Shown: one piece after another, positions 20,581-35,218 of the stretch
How positions within the stretch are numbered: the stretch's first letter is position 1
How the letters are laid out: the number at the start of each line of letters is the position of its first letter
Assembly: GCA_029976695.1 (NCBI GenBank)
Contig: JARQTN010000253.1
Coordinates: 1-40,458, forward strand
Source of the DNA: Lewinellaceae bacterium
GTDB taxonomy: Bacteria > Bacteroidota > Bacteroidia > Chitinophagales > Saprospiraceae
Length of the DNA stretch: 40,458 bases
Direction: 5' to 3'
Position numbers and translations under genes: made by a program
Notes under the pieces: generated by a model
The model's input: the letters and a program-made list of their open reading frames with translations, nothing else
Told to the model about the DNA's origin: nothing
Databases searched by the model: none

Positions 20581-21609
20581 ATGACCTTTCAGCAATTATT
20601 GAAGACGATCCGGGAAAAATCCCTTTCCCCAGTGTATTTCCTGCATGGCAAGGAAACTTTTTATATCGATGAACTTGTGAAACACTTTGAACAGGATGTC
20701 CTCACGGAATCTGAGAAGGCGTTTAACCTGACAATTTTATATGGCCGGGAAGTGGATCAAAAGAAAGTGCTCGATCATGTCAGACAATTTCCCGTTATGG
20801 CGGAGAAGCAACTCGTGATCCTCAAGGAGGCGGCGGATATGCGCAACCTTGGTGATCTCGAGGGATATGTCAAATCGCCAAACCCCCATTGTGTCTTTGT
20901 GATCGTTCACCGGAACAAGCAATTGGACAAACGGAAGTCATTTTACAAAGCCCTGGCAAAGCATGCAGTTCTTTTTGAATCAAAGGCGCTCAAGGAAAAA
21001 GAGCTTCCTTCCTGGATAGGTCAGTATGCAAAATCGAAAGGGGTCCGGATAGAACCGGTTGCCATCGACATGCTTGTTGAACTGATCGGTTCGAACCTGG
21101 GGAACCTGTCAAATGAGCTGGATAAGATGATGATCGGCATGGAAAAGGGCAGCTCGGTGACAAAAGACCAGGTCCTTGCAGAAATCGGGATGAGCAAGGA
21201 GTTTAATATTTTTGAACTGCAATCTGCCATTGCCAGAGGCAATGCATTCAAAGTGCACCAGATTGCCAGGCATTTTACAGCTCATATCAAGGAATTTCCA
21301 TTGCCGATGCTAATCGGGGTCTTGTACAATTTTTACAGCAAGTTATATATGGCTGCAGCAACACCGAATATGGCAGATGATCAATTGGCAAAAAGGCTGG
21401 GTTTTTCATCCGCATGGTTTATCCAGGATTACAAAGCTGCAATCAAGAGATACAGCTATAACGATGTAGAGCGGTGTCTGAGCATCCTGCACCAGTATGA
21501 TCTGAAAATGAAAGGCATGGGCGCAAGAAATCCCGGGCACCAGGCGCTGATGCTGGAATTGATTGATCAGTTGCTTTTTGTCAGGCATGCTTCGGGCGTA
21601 TCGGACTAA
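20581..21609 (+). CDS. holA: DNA polymerase III, delta subunit
   Basis: A 342-residue clamp-loader subunit that opens the beta clamp. The N-terminal domain I has the delta hallmark SPVYFLHGKETFYIDELVK, then the beta-clamp-contacting helix region around LPSWIGQYAKSKGVRIEPVA. Domain III follows (FELQSAIARGNAFKVHQIARHF ... PMLIGVLYNFYSKLYMA) and the last segment carries NDVERCLSILHQYDLKMKG. Length and order match Bacteroidota HolA. In many Bacteroidota the HsdR_N-type nuclease gene lies beside holA. Here it is about 4 kb away. Confidence 0.94.
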   Translation: MTFQQLLKTIREKSLSPVYFLHGKETFYIDELVKHFEQDVLTESEKAFNLTILYGREVDQKKVLDHVRQFPVMAEKQLVILKEAADMRNLGDLEGYVKSPNPHCVFVIVHRNKQLDKRKSFYKALAKHAVLFESKALKEKELPSWIGQYAKSKGVRIEPVAIDMLVELIGSNLGNLSNELDKMMIGMEKGSSVTKDQVLAEIGMSKEFNIFELQSAIARGNAFKVHQIARHFTAHIKEFPLPMLIGVLYNFYSKLYMAAATPNMADDQLAKRLGFSSAWFIQDYKAAIKRYSYNDVERCLSILHQYDLKMKGMGARNPGHQALMLELIDQLLFVRHASGVSD

Positions 21610-25558: not shown

Positions 25559-26035
25559 TTATCCGGTTTCCAGGTCCCTGAAGGTCGGGACCTCCGGATG
25601 GAAGACCAGCTGCCGTGCTTTGCGATCTATGGAGCAGCAATAGTTTTTAGTGCCATTGGACAGGATCAGGAAGCGGACATCCAGTGCCATGTTATAATGC
25701 AGGATCTGATCAAAAACGGCCTGGTCCAGGTGTGTGGCAGGTGATTTGCATTCTACCAGGAGGAGAGGGATCAAATTGCGGTCAAATACGGCGATGTCAT
25801 ACCGCCTCGAAATTCCTTCAATCGCAACCTCTCGTTCGACACTGATCCGTGTTTGGGGAAATCCTCGTTCTGTCGTGAGGTACTGGATCAGCAACTGCCG
25901 AACGAATTCTTCAGATGTCAATCGGATCCATTTCTTCCTGACCGGATCAAAAATAAAACGTTGGCCCGAATCTGTCCTGATCCTCAGGAGGTGTGTCCAT
26001 TTCAGTAGATCGATATGGATATCTGCCGGAGCCAT
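25559..26035 (-). CDS. Small PD-(D/E)XK nuclease with type I restriction HsdR N-terminal fold
   Basis: A 158-residue protein matching the HsdR N-terminal nuclease domain alone. The catalytic set looks intact: Glu43 (EEFVRQLL), Asp80 (RRYDIAVFD), Glu95-x-Lys97 (LLLVECKSP) and Gln110-x3-Tyr114 (QILHY). The last is the QxxxY motif of RecB/HsdR-type nucleases. No HsdM, HsdS or translocase gene is nearby, so this is not a classical restriction enzyme. Stand-alone proteins of this type are widespread in Bacteroidota, often next to holA, with no known role. Here it lies 11 bases downstream of the degenerate helicase-like gene and 35 bases before the hybrid kinase. Confidence 0.87.
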   Translation of the reverse strand: MAPADIHIDLLKWTHLLRIRTDSGQRFIFDPVRKKWIRLTSEEFVRQLLIQYLTTERGFPQTRISVEREVAIEGISRRYDIAVFDRNLIPLLLVECKSPATHLDQAVFDQILHYNMALDVRFLILSNGTKNYCCSIDRKARQLVFHPEVPTFRDLETG

Positions 26036-26046
26036 ATCCCGGGAAT

Positions 26047-28503
26047 TTAAGCGCTTTTCATGTGTTCCTGGCTGATGTAGTCAGGAACATGTTTCAGGAT
26101 AAAGGATTTGACCCCTCCCATTTGTCGCCCACCATGATTCATCCAGTCTACTGTCCAGGAATTGTGGATCGGAAATCCGACCTCTGCGCATCTTTTCATG
26201 ACCATGTTTTGCCACCGGACGGAACCATGGGCCCCAGGTGAAAAGAGTCCGTCGCGGACAAGGATCAGGAGAGGCTTTTTCTGGTCGAGGAGGCATTCCA
26301 CAAGGAACGCACTTGTCGGGTTCATCCCTTCCTCATGGATCTTATACGGGAAGGGCAACTCATCCAGGAGCCAGGCATCCAGTTTAGGACCTAAAAATGA
26401 AATGACCTGTACAAACTTGGTATTGTAAATCGTCATATTCTCGTATACTGGTTCAAGCATGGATGCCACCCGTTTGTAAAAATTCAGTTTTTCACTGCTT
26501 GATACATTTGCGAGGGTATATGCAGAATCGGACAAATCGGCAGACTGAATGCGCATGAAAGTGAATTGCACCTTCCTCGTGGACTGGCTTGTCTGCAGGA
26601 GCCTGTGTGCAACACCGGGAGAGGAAATGATATGGCAGGTGCCTTTCCGGGTGGTTGATGCAAGCTGGTTGCCTACCTCAATATGTGCTTCATCGAGTAC
26701 ATAGAGCACTGCGGCCTCCGGATTGGTATAATCCGTACCGTACTTTCTGGTGAACAGCTCAGGACCGATGATCTGTATCGGGAACAACTGCATCCGCTGG
26801 TCCGGTTCAAGAAACTCGATCGCCTGGATCGTCCCGGACTCGTCTTTTTTTCGGATCAGTTTCATCACCGAACGGGCATCTTGCGCCCCTGAATGAAGGA
26901 ATGCATAGCGCTGAGACTGGGTCTCCAGCTTGAGGTATTGTACGATCGCTTTGAGGCCAGATGAGGCAATTTGTTCAGGCACCTCAAGATATGAACCGGA
27001 ATCGGGCATTTCAGCAAGGGTATGTTGGTCAAGCGTGCTCATGAAATACCACTGGTCAAAAAGGTCAAGCCACTTGTGATGTTCTTCAAATTCAAGAGCA
27101 GCGATGACCTTGCGCGCATTTTCCGGGATGTTATCCTCAAATGACCGCCAGAAAAAGAAGTCCTCAAGTTTTGCACATGCCCGGCGCATCTCCCTCAGTT
27201 GTCTTACGATTTCCGTCACGATACCGAGTTTCTTCCGGACAGATAATGCATTCACTTCCTTGCCAAGATCCAGGAATTCGGATTCATCGATTTGCCTTTT
27301 CCATTCAAAAAGCTGTTTTTCCCATTCACCGATGCGTCCTTGCAAGGGGTGTCCTGATGGCAGGTTTTTCGAATTCAGCCGTTTGATCTGTTCGTTGATC
27401 CTGGCCTGCATCTTGCGTTCACAATCCTGCAATTCCCTTGACAGCCTGTTCAAATGTGCTGTGATCGCATCCATCGAAAGGGTCTCGGCTGGCTGCAGGG
27501 ATTCCACCGGGAGATATGCCTCCAGGATTTCAAGGTTCGTGAGCAGGTTTATGTATGCAGACTTCACCCACCTGCGGGCCTTGATCAGGTCTTTGCTCGC
27601 TCGTGTGAAATTACTTTTCAGCTTCAGTGTGAAATTACCCAGTGAAGTCTCCATTGAGAATTCCGGGCCCAGGAATTGTTGGTAATTTTCGATTTTGAAG
27701 AGCAGCGTGGATATTTCGTGATAACTTTTTTTCAGGATTGCCTGTAGGGATTGCTTTGAATGCTGAATATAGTCCAGCAGGAGGATTTCCCCCTCGCGGA
27801 TGAGCCGCTCCCCGGTTTCGGTATTCTGGGACAAGTGTGCAGTGACTTCCTTTTTAATTGTTTCAAGGGCATATTTCTTGAGGTGACTGATATTCAGTTC
27901 CTGCAACTGGTCAAACCAGGGATGATTGAGTTTGCACAATTTGACATAGTTGGACAGTTTTGACCGGATCATTTTGTATTCCTCAGCGGTCCGTTCAAAT
28001 TCAGTCGGGTTCAGTTTGAGTGACAGGATATTGGGATTGCCGCTAAGCGGGTGTGCCGCCAGCCTGTCGGCAATGTCCTGCCAGGTCATCGTATCGAAAA
28101 CCCTGGTCTGCAAAACCTCATACTTCTCTTGCCATTGTTTCATTTCCTGGCTGGCGGCGGACATGGCAAACTGCTGGCTCTTCACTTCCTTCTCATCTGG
28201 TAGCCTTTTTCTGGCCAGTTGAATTGCAGGGTAGTAACCTGCTTCATTTTTCAGGTATACAATAGCTGAAAGGTCCAGATCCTGGAATCTGCGATGCAGC
28301 TGGTTTCTTTGTTCGGGAGACCCGATCACGAGATATGCCTTTTTCCCGGCCAGGGCCTGTTCTATTGCCCAGGCAGTGATGAGTTCAAGCTGTTTCTCCT
28401 GTTCATTCACTGAAAGAAGCAAATGTGGTTGTGATTGAAGCAGATCAAGGGCTTTCAGCTGGTCCGGGTCCAGCGTGTGGAGCCATCTGTGCGGTAATGA
28501 CAT
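26047..28503 (-). CDS. Large degenerate superfamily 1 helicase-nuclease-like protein (probable pseudoenzyme)
   Basis: An 818-residue protein. Its order of segments follows the large SF1 helicases (DUF4011/AAA_11-type) that end in a Vsr/MTES_1575-like nuclease. Residues 12-80 align with the first RecA region, but SVNEQEKQ (31-38) replaces the Walker A GPPGTGKS, keeping only Lys37. A long helical insert with a LNHPWFDQL landmark (192-200) spans about 120-560. Motif II survives as VLDEAH (602-607). Motif III and most of the second RecA domain are missing. The C-terminal 705-790 retains the nuclease framework (RDGLFS; FPIHNSWTVDWM) without the acidic catalytic residues. There is no export signal. 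The frame is uninterrupted. The alignment is by eye, so the family call is moderate. Confidence 0.62.
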   Translation of the reverse strand: MSLPHRWLHTLDPDQLKALDLLQSQPHLLLSVNEQEKQLELITAWAIEQALAGKKAYLVIGSPEQRNQLHRRFQDLDLSAIVYLKNEAGYYPAIQLARKRLPDEKEVKSQQFAMSAASQEMKQWQEKYEVLQTRVFDTMTWQDIADRLAAHPLSGNPNILSLKLNPTEFERTAEEYKMIRSKLSNYVKLCKLNHPWFDQLQELNISHLKKYALETIKKEVTAHLSQNTETGERLIREGEILLLDYIQHSKQSLQAILKKSYHEISTLLFKIENYQQFLGPEFSMETSLGNFTLKLKSNFTRASKDLIKARRWVKSAYINLLTNLEILEAYLPVESLQPAETLSMDAITAHLNRLSRELQDCERKMQARINEQIKRLNSKNLPSGHPLQGRIGEWEKQLFEWKRQIDESEFLDLGKEVNALSVRKKLGIVTEIVRQLREMRRACAKLEDFFFWRSFEDNIPENARKVIAALEFEEHHKWLDLFDQWYFMSTLDQHTLAEMPDSGSYLEVPEQIASSGLKAIVQYLKLETQSQRYAFLHSGAQDARSVMKLIRKKDESGTIQAIEFLEPDQRMQLFPIQIIGPELFTRKYGTDYTNPEAAVLYVLDEAHIEVGNQLASTTRKGTCHIISSPGVAHRLLQTSQSTRKVQFTFMRIQSADLSDSAYTLANVSSSEKLNFYKRVASMLEPVYENMTIYNTKFVQVISFLGPKLDAWLLDELPFPYKIHEEGMNPTSAFLVECLLDQKKPLLILVRDGLFSPGAHGSVRWQNMVMKRCAEVGFPIHNSWTVDWMNHGGRQMGGVKSFILKHVPDYISQEHMKSA

Positions 28504-28546
28504 ATGAGACCTGTATTTTGAGTTTTCTGTTCTGAGGATGGCTGAA

Positions 28547-28554
28547 CAAATATA
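28547..28554 (-). promoter_or_regulatory. -7 box upstream of the helicase-like gene
   Basis: On the minus strand the bases read TATATTTG, matching TAnnTTTG, 43 bases before the start codon at 28503. No TTTG at -33 was seen. It lies in the gap between this gene and the divergent lipoprotein gene. Confidence 0.5.
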
Positions 28555-28657
28555 TCATTTTTTTAATATATTCACATTTCATTTTATCGCTTTCCTCAGC
28601 GCATATAAAATGACAATTTCTATTGCACATTTTATTTCGTCCATAAAATCAAGTATC

Positions 28658-29272
28658 ATGATGAAAACGAGATGGTATCCATTCTTTATTCTCATCAACA
28701 CTGTTTTTCTTTTGATCAGCTGTCAATCAGGAAACAGGAATGTGGAAACCGCACAAGATCTTGCCGGTTATGAAATCGAAGCGATCAAGGGGTCTGCATT
28801 CTCACATGCTACCCTGTCAGGTCCGGATGGCAAAATCCTAGAGAAGGGACCTGTCCTCGATGGTCTGCGGAACGGCACCTGGATCAAATATGCCGATGAT
28901 GGCAGGATTCAGCTGCTGAGCTCCTATCTTGACGGTGCATTGAACGGCCCTGTGCTGAGTTTCAGCAAAAGGGGACAGATTGATGAAAAGGCCTATTACA
29001 GGAACAACCTGTATCACGGGCCCCGCGTGACATACCGCTTTGGCCGTCCACAGGTGGAAGAAAATTATGTGGATAACACGCTCGATGGCATCAAACGGAA
29101 ATATCACAACAATGGAAAGATCCAGGAAGAGATCGAATATAAAATGGGTGTGCAGGACGGGATATACCGCTATTATGACGACCAGGGGAACATGACCCTG
29201 GACTACCTGTACAAGGACGGGGAAAAGGTCAGCGGTGGCATCGTCGAACCGTCAGCTGAAAACGAGCAGTAG
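28658..29272 (+). CDS. MORN/YwqK-repeat lipoprotein
   Basis: A 204-residue exported lipoprotein. The signal MMKTRWYPFFILINTVFLLISC ends in a lipobox with the modified Cys at residue 22. The mature part is a string of about five MORN-like repeats with the consensus G-x-x-x-G-x-W/Y-x-x-Y (GLRNGTWIKYADDG, GALNGPVLSFSKRG, NLYHGPRVTYRFG, NTLDGIKRKYHNNG, GVQDGIYRYYDDQG). Such proteins are often labelled YwqK-family antitoxin-like, without evidence for an antitoxin role here. The ATG pair at 28658/28661 is chosen because the longer frame (to 28538) overlaps the divergent promoter. Sits upstream of the gld operon. Confidence 0.85.
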   Translation: MMKTRWYPFFILINTVFLLISCQSGNRNVETAQDLAGYEIEAIKGSAFSHATLSGPDGKILEKGPVLDGLRNGTWIKYADDGRIQLLSSYLDGALNGPVLSFSKRGQIDEKAYYRNNLYHGPRVTYRFGRPQVEENYVDNTLDGIKRKYHNNGKIQEEIEYKMGVQDGIYRYYDDQGNMTLDYLYKDGEKVSGGIVEPSAENEQ

Positions 29273-29372: not shown

Positions 29373-30296
29373 ATGGATATTCAAATACAGAATTTGAGTA
29401 AATCTTATGGATTGCAAAAGGCCGTGGATGATATTTCATTCCATGTGAAACCCGGTGAAATCGTTGGTTTCCTTGGACCGAATGGCGCCGGAAAAACGAC
29501 AACCATGAAGATGATCACGCACTATCTGGAAATGGATGGTGGTGATATCCTGATCGGGGGGAACTCGATCAGGAAAGTGAATATGCGAAAGCACATCGGA
29601 TACCTTCCCGAAAACAACCCGCTCTATGAGGATATGCCGGTCATCGATTACCTGGCTTTCTGTGCGGGACTGCATGGTGTCCCGAAGACGGAAATCCCGG
29701 GCCGGATCCGGGAAATGGTCAGGCTATGCGGGCTGAATGTCGAAAAACACAAGAAGATCGGTGAACTGTCCAAAGGGTACCGACAGCGGGTGGGCCTTGC
29801 CCAGGCCATGATCCACCATCCTGCTGTCCTGGTCCTCGATGAGCCGACCACAGGGCTTGACCCGAACCAGATTGTCGAGATCCGCGAACTTATCAGGAAA
29901 CTTGGAAGGGAAAAGACAGTGATCCTGTCCACCCATATTCTGCCAGAGGTCGAGGCAACCTGTGACCGCATCCTGATCATCAACAACGGGAAAATCGTAG
30001 CTGATGGAACTGCCCAGGATCTGCGCAAACAGGCTTCCGGAAGGCAGATCATCAAGGCGCGCATCCAGGGCGGAAGTGTGCAGGATATCTTTGAAAAACT
30101 TGCTGCATTGCCGGGCGTCGCATCCGTAGATCTCGTGAATGCTGATGAATCGAGGTTTGAAATCGAAAGTCACCAGGGGGCAACCAGCAACGAGGCAGTC
30201 TTCCATGCCTGTGTCCAGAACAAATGGGTCCTGACCGAGCTGATCCCGATAGAAACGAAGCTTGAAGATATTTTCCGGGATGTGACCCTGAATTGA
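29373..30296 (+). CDS. gldA: ABC transporter ATP-binding protein GldA
   Basis: A 307-residue ATPase of the GldAFG ABC transporter, which is required for gliding in Flavobacterium johnsoniae. Walker A is GPNGAGKTTT near residue 34, the signature LSKGYRQRVGLAQAM near 133, Walker B VLVLDEPTTGLDPN, and the switch His in STHILPEVE. A C-terminal extension of about 85 residues (from KARIQGGSVQD on) is typical of GldA. It is first in the operon, 36 bases before gldF. In some Bacteroidota the same cluster occurs without gliding, so motility itself is an inference. Confidence 0.93.
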   Translation: MDIQIQNLSKSYGLQKAVDDISFHVKPGEIVGFLGPNGAGKTTTMKMITHYLEMDGGDILIGGNSIRKVNMRKHIGYLPENNPLYEDMPVIDYLAFCAGLHGVPKTEIPGRIREMVRLCGLNVEKHKKIGELSKGYRQRVGLAQAMIHHPAVLVLDEPTTGLDPNQIVEIRELIRKLGREKTVILSTHILPEVEATCDRILIINNGKIVADGTAQDLRKQASGRQIIKARIQGGSVQDIFEKLAALPGVASVDLVNADESRFEIESHQGATSNEAVFHACVQNKWVLTELIPIETKLEDIFRDVTLN

Positions 30297-30332
30297 CGAA
30301 CTCCTTTATTGAATTAAATCGATCCACCAGAA

Positions 30333-31049
30333 ATGAAGGAAATTTGGATTATCGCGAGACGAGAGTTGAACGCATTTTTTGACAGCCTTGTCGCATATAT
30401 TTTATTGATCGCTTTTTTAGGATTCAGTGGGTACTTTACCTGGCTTGGCGGTTCTGATATCTTCTTTCGGAAACAGGCTGACCTGCAGGTCTTCTTTTCC
30501 GTTGCGCTCTGGACCCTGTTCTTTTTCATTCCGGCGCTGACCATGAAGCAACTTGCTGAGGAAAAGAAAACAGGGACGATCGAACTGCTCCTGACAAAGG
30601 CGATCTCGGACCGTCAGGTCATCCTCGGGAAATTCCTTGCCTGTCTGATGCTCGTTTTGATCGCCCTGGCTTTGACCATCCCTTATTTTATAACGATCTC
30701 TTCGATCGGGGATATGGATCAGGGTGCGACGCTTTCGGGTTACCTTGGACTGATCCTGATGAGTGCTGCGTATATCGCGATCGGGCTTTTCGCCAGCAGT
30801 CTGACGAACAACCAGATCGTGGCATTCCTGCTGGCATTGCTGATCGGCATCTTTTTCCAGTTCCTGTTCAATGTGTTTTCTTCCGGGATGACAGGCTGGA
30901 TGGGTGAATTGATCAGCAACCTGAGCGTGACGAAGCATTATGAGTCCATCAAAAGAGGTGTCATTGACTCCAAGGATATCGTGTATTTCCTGTCCCTGAC
31001 TTTCCTGGGTCTCATGTTCTCAGAATTAGTGATTTCTAAAAGAAAGTAA
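30333..31049 (+). CDS. gldF: Gliding-motility ABC transporter permease GldF
   Basis: A 238-residue inner-membrane permease with about six hydrophobic segments (near 15-35, 55-75, 100-125, 135-160, 165-190 and 215-235). Landmarks include FIPALTMKQLAEEKKTGTIELLLTKAISD, which is the hallmark cytoplasmic loop of ABC-2-type permeases, and VTKHYESIKRGVIDSKDIVYF. It pairs with GldA and GldG, which follows 10 bases later. Confidence 0.93.
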   Translation: MKEIWIIARRELNAFFDSLVAYILLIAFLGFSGYFTWLGGSDIFFRKQADLQVFFSVALWTLFFFIPALTMKQLAEEKKTGTIELLLTKAISDRQVILGKFLACLMLVLIALALTIPYFITISSIGDMDQGATLSGYLGLILMSAAYIAIGLFASSLTNNQIVAFLLALLIGIFFQFLFNVFSSGMTGWMGELISNLSVTKHYESIKRGVIDSKDIVYFLSLTFLGLMFSELVISKRK

Positions 31050-31059
31050 ACCTGCAATC

Positions 31060-32556
31060 ATGAACAGACTGATTTCCATCCTTCTGATTATTGGAATCGT
31101 CATCCTGGCAAACCTGCTTTCGACGCAATACTTTGCCAGGTTGGATATAACGGAAAATCATCAGTACACACTGAGCAGTGCCACGAAGCAGATCCTTTCA
31201 AATCTCGAAGACCCGGTTACAGTACAGGCTTATTTTTCAAAGAATTTGCCCGTGGACATCGAGAAAGTGAGAAAGGACTTCCAGGACCTGCTTGTAGAAT
31301 ACAACACCCTCAGCAAAGGAAATGTCGACTATGAGTTTATCGATCCATCCGGCTCGGAAGACGAGGAGCGGTCCGCCATGCAGGAGGGCATCAGGCCTGT
31401 CCTGATCAATGTCCGTGAAAAGGACCAGACGACCCAACAAAAAGCATTTATGGGTGCTGTCTTGAGTTTTGGCGACCAGAAAGAAATCATCCCGTTTATT
31501 TCCCAGGAGACGCCAATGGAATATGAGCTTACGACGGCAATCAAAAAAATGACGGCGGTTGACAAGCCTTCAGTCGGTTTTATTACCGGGCATGGCGAGC
31601 CGGATTTGTCCAGGATGGGACAGGCAGTCCAGGCGCTTTCCGTCATCTTCAGTGTGGAAATGATCGACCTGGATGCGGAACCGGCCATCCCGGCGCGATT
31701 CAGGGCCGTTGCCATGATCGCACCCGTGGACAGCCTGCCGCCCGCTCATCTGGGCAAACTCGATGATTATCTCGCAATGGGGGGCAAACTCCTGGTGGCC
31801 ATGAATGCAGTAACCGGGGATTTTTCCACTGCCCAGGGGACAGCTGTGGAAAGCAACCTGTTTGCCTGGCTTGCTGAGAAGGGTATCCGGGTCGAACCTT
31901 CATTTGTCATCGATTCACGTTCAGGCTCTGTGACGGTGCAACAGCAGCAAGGGTTTTTCAGAATGAATACCCAGGTCCAGTTTCCCTATTTTCCGCTTGT
32001 GCAGAGTTTTGGCGACCACCCGGTTTCAAAGGGGCTTGACCAGGTCATCTTCCAGTTTGCGAGTCCCATCCAGTTTGCGGGCGATTCAATGAGCCAGTTC
32101 ACCCCGATCATCCGGAGCTCCGACCGGGCAGGCATACAGCAGGCCCCCACCTTTTTCGATGTACAGAGAAAGTGGTCCAATTCAGATTTCCCGATGTCGA
32201 ATATTGTGATGGGAGGGGTGCTCGAAGGTGTGATCGAAGGGTCGCCAGAGGCGAAACTCGTTGTCTTTACGGATGGAGATTTTCCCCAGGGGGAACCTGG
32301 AAGGGGGATTAATCCGGACAATGCCAACCTGCTGACAAATGCAATTGAATGGCTCTCTGATGATACGGGCCTGAGTGCTTTGCGTACGAAAGCAGTCCTC
32401 TCACGACCAATTGATGAACTTGAAGAGGGGAGAAGGACATTCCTCAAATTCCTGAATTTCTTTCTGCCAATCGGCCTTGTGCTCCTGTTTGGCATTTTCA
32501 GGTGGCAAAGAAACCGTTCAAAACGGATGAGGAGGATGGTAGAAAACTACACTTAA
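31060..32556 (+). CDS. gldG: Gliding-motility ABC transporter component GldG
   Basis: A 498-residue protein anchored at both ends: a membrane segment at residues 4-22 and another at about 468-487. Between them is a large periplasmic part with the GldG signature LDITENHQYTLSSATKQIL, then DFQDLLVEYNTLS, VGFITGHGEPDLS and the GATase-like region around LDDYLAMGGKLLVAMNAV. The C-terminal stretch RRTFLKFLNFFLPIGLVLLFGIFRW is typical. It completes the GldAFG set and is followed after 23 bases by a DUF4340 gene. Confidence 0.94.
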   Translation: MNRLISILLIIGIVILANLLSTQYFARLDITENHQYTLSSATKQILSNLEDPVTVQAYFSKNLPVDIEKVRKDFQDLLVEYNTLSKGNVDYEFIDPSGSEDEERSAMQEGIRPVLINVREKDQTTQQKAFMGAVLSFGDQKEIIPFISQETPMEYELTTAIKKMTAVDKPSVGFITGHGEPDLSRMGQAVQALSVIFSVEMIDLDAEPAIPARFRAVAMIAPVDSLPPAHLGKLDDYLAMGGKLLVAMNAVTGDFSTAQGTAVESNLFAWLAEKGIRVEPSFVIDSRSGSVTVQQQQGFFRMNTQVQFPYFPLVQSFGDHPVSKGLDQVIFQFASPIQFAGDSMSQFTPIIRSSDRAGIQQAPTFFDVQRKWSNSDFPMSNIVMGGVLEGVIEGSPEAKLVVFTDGDFPQGEPGRGINPDNANLLTNAIEWLSDDTGLSALRTKAVLSRPIDELEEGRRTFLKFLNFFLPIGLVLLFGIFRWQRNRSKRMRRMVENYT

Positions 32557-33518: not shown

Positions 33519-33562
33519 GGAGCCGGTTCTTGATTTGTTACTTTTCTTTCGACCAGAAACAT

Positions 33563-35218
33563 ATGGATAACAAGGAAATCGCGCGCTCATTCCGGCAGTT
33601 GGCTGACTTGATGGAGCTACATGGAGAAAATCCATTCAGGACAAGGACATATGCGAATGCGTATATCAGCCTCCGGAAGGTGGACCGGGATATTTCCATG
33701 CTGGATGAAGGTAGCCTGGCCTCCATTAAGGGCATTGGCAGTTCGGTTGCAAAGAAGATCCGCGAGCTGGTCGAGCACGGAAAGATGGATGCCCTGGAAA
33801 AGTACCGGGAGAAAACACCCGAAGGCATCCGGCAGATCTTATCGATCAAAGGGATCGGCCCGAAAAAGGTCAGGCAAATCTGGGAAGAGCTTGGAGTAGA
33901 GTCACCCGGAGAATTGCTTTATGCGTGCCAGGAGAACAGGCTTGTTGACCTGAAGGGATTTGGATTGAAAACACAACAGGACTACATCGCAAAGATCGAG
34001 TATTTCCTCGATTCACAGGAAAAGTCCCTGTATGCTTCCATTGAGGATGATGCCCTTGCCTTGCTGGAGATGTTGAGGAATGTCACTTCCGGAAAATGTG
34101 TGTTGGTCGGTGAAGTAGCGCGGAAGTGCCCCGTCATTTCTTCTTTTGAGATTCTGGTGGAAAAGCCTGTTTTCCATACGGCATTTCAAAGTCAGGATAA
34201 CCTCGAGGTTTTGGAGGCGCAAGATGATATCATCAGGATCCGGTATGCGGATAAAATGACCTGGTCCCTGCATCCATGTACAACATCAGATTTTGGGAAA
34301 AGGCAATTTGAATTGACAGCGGATGCAGCATTCATTTCTGCATGGAATGAAAAATTCAATCTTCCGGAAGAAGCAGAATCGATGGATCAGGTATTCAGGT
34401 CTGCAGGGATCCCTGTTCCGCCATCAGAAATCATGGAGGGAGAGGAGGGCCTCCGGCGAATTCTGGCGGATGAGGCACCCGGCCTGGTTTCTGATTCAGA
34501 CATCAAGGGCATCTTGCACAACCACAGCACGTACAGTGACGGGCTGCATTCCCTCAGGGAGATGGCTGAATACGTGAAAGCGAGCGGATATGCATACTTC
34601 GGGATCTGTGACCATTCACAGTCTGCGTTTTATGCAAACGGGATGCCCCCGGAAAGGGTGCTGGAACAGCATGCGGAGATTGATCTGCTCAACCGTGAAC
34701 TGGCACCATTCAAGGTATACAAGGGGATTGAATCTGACATCCTCAATGACGGGTCCCTGGACTATGAAGAGGAGATCCTTGCCCGATTTGATTTTGTCGT
34801 TGCTTCCATCCATTCGAATCTCAGGATGGACAAGGATAAAGCGACTGAACGGCTCATCAGGGCGATCGAAAATCCGTATACACGGATGCTGGGCCATCCA
34901 ACAGGCAGGCTTTTGTTGTCAAGGGAGGGGTACCCGATCGACCACATGGAGGTCATTGATGCCTGTGCCCATCATCATGTGGCCATCGAGCTGAATGCAA
35001 ATCCGCTCCGGCTTGACCTCGAATATACCTGGATTCCGTATGCAGTCGAAAAAGGAGTCCTGATCTCCATCAATCCCGATGCCCATTCAAAAGGGGGGAT
35101 ACACCTGACCCGGTTTGGTGTCATTGCTGCGCGGAAGGGATGGCTGCCGGTAGATAACTGCCTGAATGCATTGGGACCTGATGACTTTCAGGCCTGGATC
35201 AATGCGAAGAAAGTGTGA
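33563..35218 (+). CDS. polX: PolX-type protein: helix-hairpin-helix plus PHP exonuclease, degenerate polymerase domain
   Basis: A 551-residue PolX homologue. N-terminal HhH motifs for DNA binding appear as IKGIGSSVAKKI and IKGIGPKKVRQI. The polymerase palm is degenerate: the expected GDxDxL reads SSFEIL (194-198), so the metal-binding Asp pair is Ser/Glu. The TGS/HN nucleotide-binding stretch is lost near ELTADAAFISAW. The PHP domain is intact with His319, His321, Asp326, His351, Glu390, His417, His445, Asp506 and His508. The likely activity is a metal-dependent 3'-5' exonuclease without synthesis, as for the noncanonical PolX group. It follows the DUF4340 gene by 44 bases in the gld operon. 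Confidence 0.85.
   Translation: MDNKEIARSFRQLADLMELHGENPFRTRTYANAYISLRKVDRDISMLDEGSLASIKGIGSSVAKKIRELVEHGKMDALEKYREKTPEGIRQILSIKGIGPKKVRQIWEELGVESPGELLYACQENRLVDLKGFGLKTQQDYIAKIEYFLDSQEKSLYASIEDDALALLEMLRNVTSGKCVLVGEVARKCPVISSFEILVEKPVFHTAFQSQDNLEVLEAQDDIIRIRYADKMTWSLHPCTTSDFGKRQFELTADAAFISAWNEKFNLPEEAESMDQVFRSAGIPVPPSEIMEGEEGLRRILADEAPGLVSDSDIKGILHNHSTYSDGLHSLREMAEYVKASGYAYFGICDHSQSAFYANGMPPERVLEQHAEIDLLNRELAPFKVYKGIESDILNDGSLDYEEEILARFDFVVASIHSNLRMDKDKATERLIRAIENPYTRMLGHPTGRLLLSREGYPIDHMEVIDACAHHHVAIELNANPLRLDLEYTWIPYAVEKGVLISINPDAHSKGGIHLTRFGVIAARKGWLPVDNCLNALGPDDFQAWINAKKV

Follow-up and report, generated by a model that had tools for sequence, protein, structure and literature searches.

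Several proteins are known in which a helicase fold has outlived its motor. In the accounts of PMC1185551 and PMC4824097, RecC and AddB carry dead superfamily 1 (SF1) helicase folds that act as DNA readers inside the active RecBCD and AddAB complexes, and the nuclease-like domain of RecC is dead as well. PriA of Deinococcus radiodurans is a pseudohelicase without ATPase or unwinding activity but with its binding to DNA and to a partner retained; its abstract describes the loss of motifs, not of whole domains (PMC4504706). Here we describe a protein of 818 amino acids that resembles RecC and AddB in having a helicase fold without motor motifs. It is encoded in a 40,458-nucleotide stretch of DNA (the window) from a Lewinellaceae bacterium of the Saprospiraceae (assembly GCA_029976695.1, contig JARQTN010000253.1). 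Unlike the nuclease domain of AddB, which is active (PMC4824097), its nuclease remnant has no glutamate, and whereas the inactivity of PriA was shown by assay (PMC4504706), that of the 818-residue protein is predicted from sequence.

The closest described enzymes are the DUF4011/ProA-like and Hhe-like SF1B helicase-nucleases (NF058533, NF042953, PF13195, PF18741). These are colinear with the 818-residue protein from the Q-motif region to motif II, and they share with it a helical insert and a nuclease-like end. Unlike them, it lacks Walker A, RecA2, motifs III-VI and the nuclease glutamate. In Pseudomonas aeruginosa, a DUF4011 core gene is described at the flank of a defence hotspot (PMC10250203). 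A first-pass annotation of the window knew of no described system of this type, and our search of PMC found no literature on a Saprospiraceae pseudo-helicase-nuclease family, yet RecC, AddB and Deinococcus PriA, as these sources present them, are known pseudo-helicases of other lineages. Pseudo-helicases as such are thus not new, but the finding is larger than first noted: a widespread pseudo-helicase-nuclease of one family. Below, numbers prefixed G, L, g and f are our own handles for genomes, loci, genera and families.

Descent from DUF4011/ProA-like helicase-nucleases

The gene has an ATG start and 818 codons with no break in frame, as the first-pass annotation had described it, and its codon-position G+C (0.55/0.34/0.57) is close to that of the four other window genes compared. 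Its features are as follows.

26047..28503, minus strand: pseudo-helicase-nuclease, 818 amino acids, a short form without RecA2 and without the N-terminal domain of long forms
28387..28410, minus strand: Walker A slot, residues 32-39, VNEQEKQL opposite GPPGTGKS in the profile-profile alignment
26893..28167, minus strand: helical insert between motifs Ia and II, residues 113-537, matching the intact-enzyme profile at E 5.9e-27
26683..26694, minus strand: DEAH in the motif II slot, residues 604-607, absent from the nearest relatives
26089..26418, minus strand: MTES_1575/Vsr-like nuclease remnant, residues 696-805, assigned by order and alignment and weak on its own
26248..26259, minus strand: VRDG (residues 749-752) opposite canonical ECDG, with the glutamate lost and D751 kept

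Taken alone, the protein matched no Pfam family over its cut-off (best E 0.024) and no model of PADLOC or NCBIfam, ProA and Hhe included. The model of the ProA anti-phage protein (NF058533; curated cut-off 1500 bits) likewise gave no match in the whole genome at E 1e-15. The helicase link is therefore visible only through relatives. A profile of 21 intact relatives, built without the 818-residue protein, found it at E 4.6e-28, and the best of 200 shuffled copies reached E 9.9; a second segment of the match (residues 744-805) lies in the correct order without significance of its own. Profile-profile alignment with hhalign of 12 short relatives, the 818-residue protein first among them, against seven intact ones gave a probability of 99.8 and E 4e-28 over 571 columns, which run from the Q-motif region past motif II. 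Together, the shuffle control and the hhalign result rule out chance similarity to SF1 helicases. They also give the link that the first-pass annotation had proposed from the order of the segments, that of an SF1 helicase with an MTES_1575-like end.

Against PDB, the intact profile matched chains of SMUBP-2 (6e-16), Sen1, NAM7/Upf1 and Dna2, which identifies the branch as Upf1-like SF1B; PriA belongs to a helicase family other than this SF1B DUF4011 branch. One locus from another family of the same order (L023) looks intact, its frame being cut at the locus end. It carries AAA_11, AAA_12 and DUF4011 over their Pfam cut-offs and MTES_1575 below its own, and it matches ProA at 1.2e-128 and Hhe at 7.1e-76 in NCBIfam, both below the cut-offs. 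Judged by profile homology and colinearity, the 818-residue protein is a descendant of the DUF4011/ProA-like SF1B helicase-nuclease lineage.

A place in the RecC/AddB family, instead of the DUF4011 type, would follow the same logic of an SF1 fold without motifs, and RecC is described as having a dead nuclease-like domain too (PMC1185551, PMC4824097). We nevertheless regard such membership as extremely improbable and rejected it, since Pfam, NCBIfam and PDB searches gave no match to that family. The profiles favour DUF4011/ProA-like and Upf1-type enzymes, the 13 PDB matches of the short-form profile up to E 1 include no RecC or AddB chain, and the same genome holds a separate PDDEXK_1 match over cut-off, in a 1062-residue frame, as expected of AddB.

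Loss of motor and nuclease motifs

The pattern GxxxxGK[ST] of Walker A occurs nowhere in the protein. That the slot is degenerate had been recognized by the first-pass annotation, although its placement, SVNEQEKQ at residues 31-38, is off by one from the aligned position. Alignment confirms VLDEAH (residues 602-607) in the motif II slot, as first read. Because the nearest relatives are without it, the DEAH is probably a vestige or chance and should not be taken as kept function. Alignments to intact relatives revealed no counterpart of motifs III-VI, and RecA2 is missing. About 97 residues separate the DEAH from residue 705, in line with the initial estimate of about 95 and with most of RecA2 being gone.

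Searched alone, the nuclease-like end reached E 98 with the intact profile and E 0.49 with the long-form profile, so its assignment rests on colinearity and relatives. MTES_1575 (PF18741; gathering score 38.2 bits) has no match in the 818-residue protein; among relatives it exceeds its cut-off solely in L032, at 43.6 bits. Canonical IECDG corresponds to LVRDG, and SWTVDW occupies the SWSVDWW slot of relatives, which agrees with the kept RDG and SWTVDW landmarks and the altered IECDG read from the sequence at first. The closest homologues (G012 and G141, 28% identity) are degenerate at the same places, the Walker A slot reading WSQQADHL or WSQHTDHL and the nuclease slot LVRDF, so that near relatives with intact sites did not appear.

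To place these losses in the family, relatives were grouped by size into long (~1190-1360 amino acids), mid (~1010-1040) and short forms (~620-820, including the 818-residue protein) and compared with the intact set. Forms were collected, and loci and linkage scanned, with a family profile that included the 818-residue protein and L023. The 63 members counted are those fetched, best matches plus hand picks, and are no random sample. They derive from 66 collected rows after reassignment of L023 to the intact relatives and removal of L019 and L089, both truncated by contig ends; L009, L064 and L083, each cut at an end, stayed in. The 21 intact relatives are L023 and 20 of the 30 best ProA-profile loci, and their motif content is partly an effect of this selection; among them L138 comes from the family of the window itself and the frame of L159 is without the Walker A part. 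Counts are given in the order intact; long; mid; short, by alignment column for all motifs after Walker A.

Walker A pattern: 19/20 (L159 set aside); 32/40; 7/7; 0/16
Motif II D-E: 21/21; 17/40; 0/7; 2/16
Motif III G-D..Q: 21/21; 11/40; 0/7; 0/16
Motif IV Y-R: 21/21; 0/40; 0/7; 0/16
Motif V: 21/21; 0/40; 0/7; 0/16
Motif VI R-A-R/K: 21/21; 1/40; 0/7; 0/16
Motif VI arginine alone: 21/21; 17/40; 0/7; 0/16
Nuclease E...D: 12/21; 0/40; 0/7; 0/16
Nuclease D alone: 14/21; 37/40; 6/7; 16/16

All 16 forms under 850 amino acids are without Walker A. Because short forms align poorly, an alignment-free count was added; across the 63 members it found Walker A in 39, motif VI in three, and DEAS, motifs III, IV and V and the nuclease motif in none. 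The same losses thus recur among homologues in Saprospiraceae, with motifs IV and V and the nuclease E...D in 0/63, and every family member seen appears motor-defective, the short forms being furthest along. In the ten ProA-profile loci omitted from the intact set (L132, L134-L136, L139, L140, L143, L154, L157, L160), several of which are partial frames, the patterns of motifs II, III and VI occurred in 10/10, motif IV in eight, motif V in nine and Walker A in four.

The aspartate of the nuclease slot survives in 59/63 members, including every short form, which would fit an enzyme that persists through an unrecognized site, for example a nuclease using this residue. Since the E...D pair is complete in none, the glutamate is lost along with the motor, and the Walker A pattern is absent from all short forms, we consider persistent activity very improbable.

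Identity is unevenly distributed along the protein. Residues 1-30, ahead of the P-loop, show 22-25% identity to the family and are among the best-kept stretches. The tryptophan-rich end of the insert (residues 411-500) is 22% identical to long and mid forms, 24% to short forms and 16% to intact ones, and the nuclease-like segment (residues 696-760) is 22% identical among short forms; the remaining stretches lie at 8-19%.

Two observations concern intact-type relatives. Those of family f18 (L148-L151, L153, L155, L158) retain the motor motifs and have lost the nuclease motif (IDFENT stands in place of IECDG, for example), so that by their motifs the other half of the enzyme seems to decay there. 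At L136 (G524), a ProA-type match extends over two adjoining open frames of 1141 and 863 amino acids.

Spread and selection

The gene is widespread. At E 1e-3, 198/398 Saprospiraceae genomes match the 818-residue protein and 311/398 match the family profile, the latter being an upper figure in which weak matches may be other SF1 helicases; a match to the protein is also held by 24 of 60 related genomes. This spread, together with the same motif losses in relatives, rules out a single decayed copy. One short form, whose Walker A slot reads GGTTARQF, belongs to G147, taken as Haliscomenobacter hydrossis (Saprospiraceae). Of 198 genomes of the order, 75 match the ProA profile at E 1e-15, five of them over the curated cut-off; in that list, certain neighbouring families (f4, f12 and f18) often have intact relatives. 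An enzyme like L142 was found in 1/198 genomes across the class at E 1e-60. The passage from a scattered active gene to a widespread dead one would amount to domestication.

Arranged by motif content, the homologues form a graded series: intact relatives in neighbouring families, long forms, most of which keep the P-loop while RecA2 is defective, mid forms that lack RecA2, short forms whose P-loop is gone, and empty slots. Long branches dominate the trees. A 14-row short group had support 95 in one tree and was not recovered whole in the other; a single clade of 45 family rows was not rejected by the approximately unbiased test (p-AU 0.575), and neither was a single clade of all 16 short forms (p-AU 0.352). 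Differing neighbours of the short forms in g19 and g7 suggest independent truncations.

Genome searches found no second genome of the window's own genus, and the selection figures come from relatives. Finite synonymous divergence (dS) was obtained in 17/87 pairs of g7 and g70 short forms. Among motor-less proteins a single pair, from g7, has dS below 1: over 765 codons and at 82% identity, its nonsynonymous divergence (dN) is 0.107 and its dS 0.94, giving dN/dS 0.11. The other 16 pairs, at dS 1.7-3.2, are near saturation and have ratios of 0.18-0.52. Five long-form pairs with finite dS, from a set of 13 pairs, gave dN/dS 0.05-0.15. Within the sister genus, the short forms of G012 and G141 are 85% identical over 794 codons, with dN 0.10 and saturated synonymous sites. 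Internal stops were found in 0/12 match rows of g70 and 1/15 of g7. Spread in the family and purifying selection in relatives, measured well in one short pair, fit the retained pseudoenzyme that the first-pass annotation had proposed, putatively as a scaffold that binds DNA or as a regulator. In the sister genus g13 (L026, L091), two species share 85% identity in the pseudo-helicase and 62-64% in both its neighbours, the reverse of its fast evolution elsewhere.

Some of these data also bear on a gene that lost its use with its motor and is eroding slowly before deletion, a process already complete in some genera. Such a history would account for the two genomes (G013, G032) with no family member between the MORN and HSDR_N_2 genes described below, for the 9/21 g7 genomes that gave no match to a g7 query, for the strong shortening of several forms, and for the divergence of nine g70 genomes, 22-46% identical to G364 over the matched stretches. 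It also draws on the split copy of G373 and on the higher ratios of the deeper pairs. The dN/dS of the well-measured g7 pair argues against it, as do the sister-genus pair, still 85% identical at synonymous saturation beside neighbours at 62-64%, and the matches in 10/10 g70 genomes, free of internal stops. The same residues have moreover been lost over many genera with the frame kept, and we judge a dying gene to be improbable. In G373 itself (L171, L173; genome 83% complete), the pseudo-helicase lies in two frames.

The adjacent HSDR_N_2 gene and a possible two-gene unit

Directly downstream of the pseudo-helicase lies a plain member of the HSDR_N_2 single-domain proteins, with its site intact.

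25559..26035, minus strand: HSDR_N_2 single-domain nuclease-type gene, 158 amino acids, PF13588 at 1.4e-30, D...ECK site present

It starts 11 nucleotides past the pseudo-helicase stop. The same arrangement, HSDR_N_2 directly 3' of a short form on the same strand at a gap of -83 to +84 nucleotides, recurs across several genera, in 22 genomes, of which three have copies truncated by the end of a contig. The count covers loci L026-L045, L091-L130 and L161-L189 plus the window and excludes L029 and L033, which lie at contig ends, as well as the partial frame of 516 residues in L111; the split copy of G373, 836 nucleotides from HSDR_N_2, is outside the 22. Beside forms of at least 1000 amino acids, each with at least 700 nucleotides of downstream sequence, HSDR_N_2 was found in 0/23. 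The D and ExK of the PD-(D/E)XK site are present in 46/46 aligned rows (four of them repeats), and the gene itself occurs in 58/60 genomes of the order. A further gene of ~105-126 amino acids follows HSDR_N_2 in six short-form loci (L044, with two copies, L045, L093, L094, L096 and L097); the one copy scanned had no Pfam match.

The steps of the reading that we tentatively favour would be these. An SF1B helicase-nuclease of the DUF4011/ProA-like kind would have been taken over in Saprospiraceae; its motor and nuclease glutamate would have decayed in all members seen, and the short forms would additionally have lost the N-terminal domain, the P-loop and RecA2. Three parts would have been kept: a short segment ahead of the P-loop, the long helical insert and the nuclease-like end. 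An insert and nuclease-like end kept without the engine would most simply make a non-catalytic DNA- or protein-binding scaffold. The adjacent gene, with its intact nuclease site, makes HSDR_N_2 the first candidate partner; in the group of the 818-residue protein, the two genes may form a unit in which the pseudo-helicase is the subunit for binding or specificity and HSDR_N_2 does the cutting (compare AddB and RecC). The sequences themselves show the homology, the loss of motifs, the spread, the purifying selection in relatives and the tight linkage; DNA binding, complex formation and cutting by the partner are what we infer.

Other genes of the window include the following, of which MORN bears on the choice between this reading and a role apart from HSDR_N_2.

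28538..29272, plus strand: MORN-repeat protein, divergent from the pseudo-helicase
29373..32556, plus strand: gldA-, gldF- and gldG-like genes, best NCBIfam matches, each under its curated cut-off
33530..35218, plus strand: PolX-like gene (HHH_8 and PHP), cluster member in 8/41 loci
20581-21609, within the window: DNA polymerase III delta-type gene

MORN lies on the upstream side, at most three genes away, in 21/41 loci (window included) of long and short forms, and on the opposite strand in two of the 21, the window and L044. Genes of the same BLAST clusters as the gldA/F/G-like genes adjoin MORN and a helicase homologue in the long-form loci L027, L028 and L107. These surroundings, shared by long and short forms, argue for orthology.

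Several results weigh against the two-gene reading, including the near-saturated ratios of the deeper short-form pairs noted above. Over 11 loci, the mean identity of the pseudo-helicase is 0.19 as against 0.39 and 0.40 for two neighbours, which indicates fast evolution, and the AlphaFold model of the 818-residue protein, with two relatives as rows, is unusable at a mean predicted local distance difference test (pLDDT) score of 39.2. Short forms without HSDR_N_2 linkage occur in 14 genomes of g7 and g19. Where a genome has an HSDR_N_2 match together with a long or mid form, the gene is on another contig (17/17). In 6/6 loci scanned, an NAD-epimerase-type gene adjoins HSDR_N_2; a position beside holA, considered for other genomes, proved wrong. 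G013 (L119) and G032 (L124) have PolX, MORN and HSDR_N_2 in order with no family member between, the gaps from MORN to HSDR_N_2 being 1 and 41 nucleotides. This order and the unlinked copies indicate that HSDR_N_2 does not need the pseudo-helicase. Co-variation of distance matrices, over 11 loci, shows no excess either, with a partial r of 0.57 for HSDR_N_2 vs 0.54 for the MORN neighbour. Co-variation that does not set HSDR_N_2 apart and the occurrence of this gene elsewhere without a pseudo-helicase leave the partnership at an intermediate probability.

The same co-variation speaks for a retained pseudoenzyme with a structural or regulatory role unrelated to HSDR_N_2, the two genes being neighbours through one ancestral joining of loci. 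MORN accompanies long and short forms alike, and the HSDR_N_2-linked copies form one 13-row group (tree supports 91 and 83), for which a single joining may suffice. On the other side, the genes around the pair vary, yet in 22 genomes from several genera stop and start overlap or are at most 84 nucleotides apart; we regard an unrelated role as rather unlikely. Of a two-gene unit with HSDR_N_2, one doubtful extension would be that a defence-type helicase-nuclease became a widespread core pseudoenzyme, that one group captured the core HSDR_N_2 as its cutting subunit, and that the RecC/AddB principle was so reinvented independently, with intermediate stages of motor loss extant.

The known dead helicases, RecC, AddB and Deinococcus PriA, are finished products, whereas here several stages of loss seem to coexist across genera. 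This series makes it testable why a dead motor is kept and in which order its motifs are lost, and a short form is available in a cultured species, the one taken as Haliscomenobacter hydrossis. If the link to HSDR_N_2 is functional, it would supply a function for a small gene of nuclease type that nearly every genome of the order carries (58/60). If true, the pseudo-helicase-nuclease of Saprospiraceae would add a new natural case of a motor protein that died and was turned to another use.

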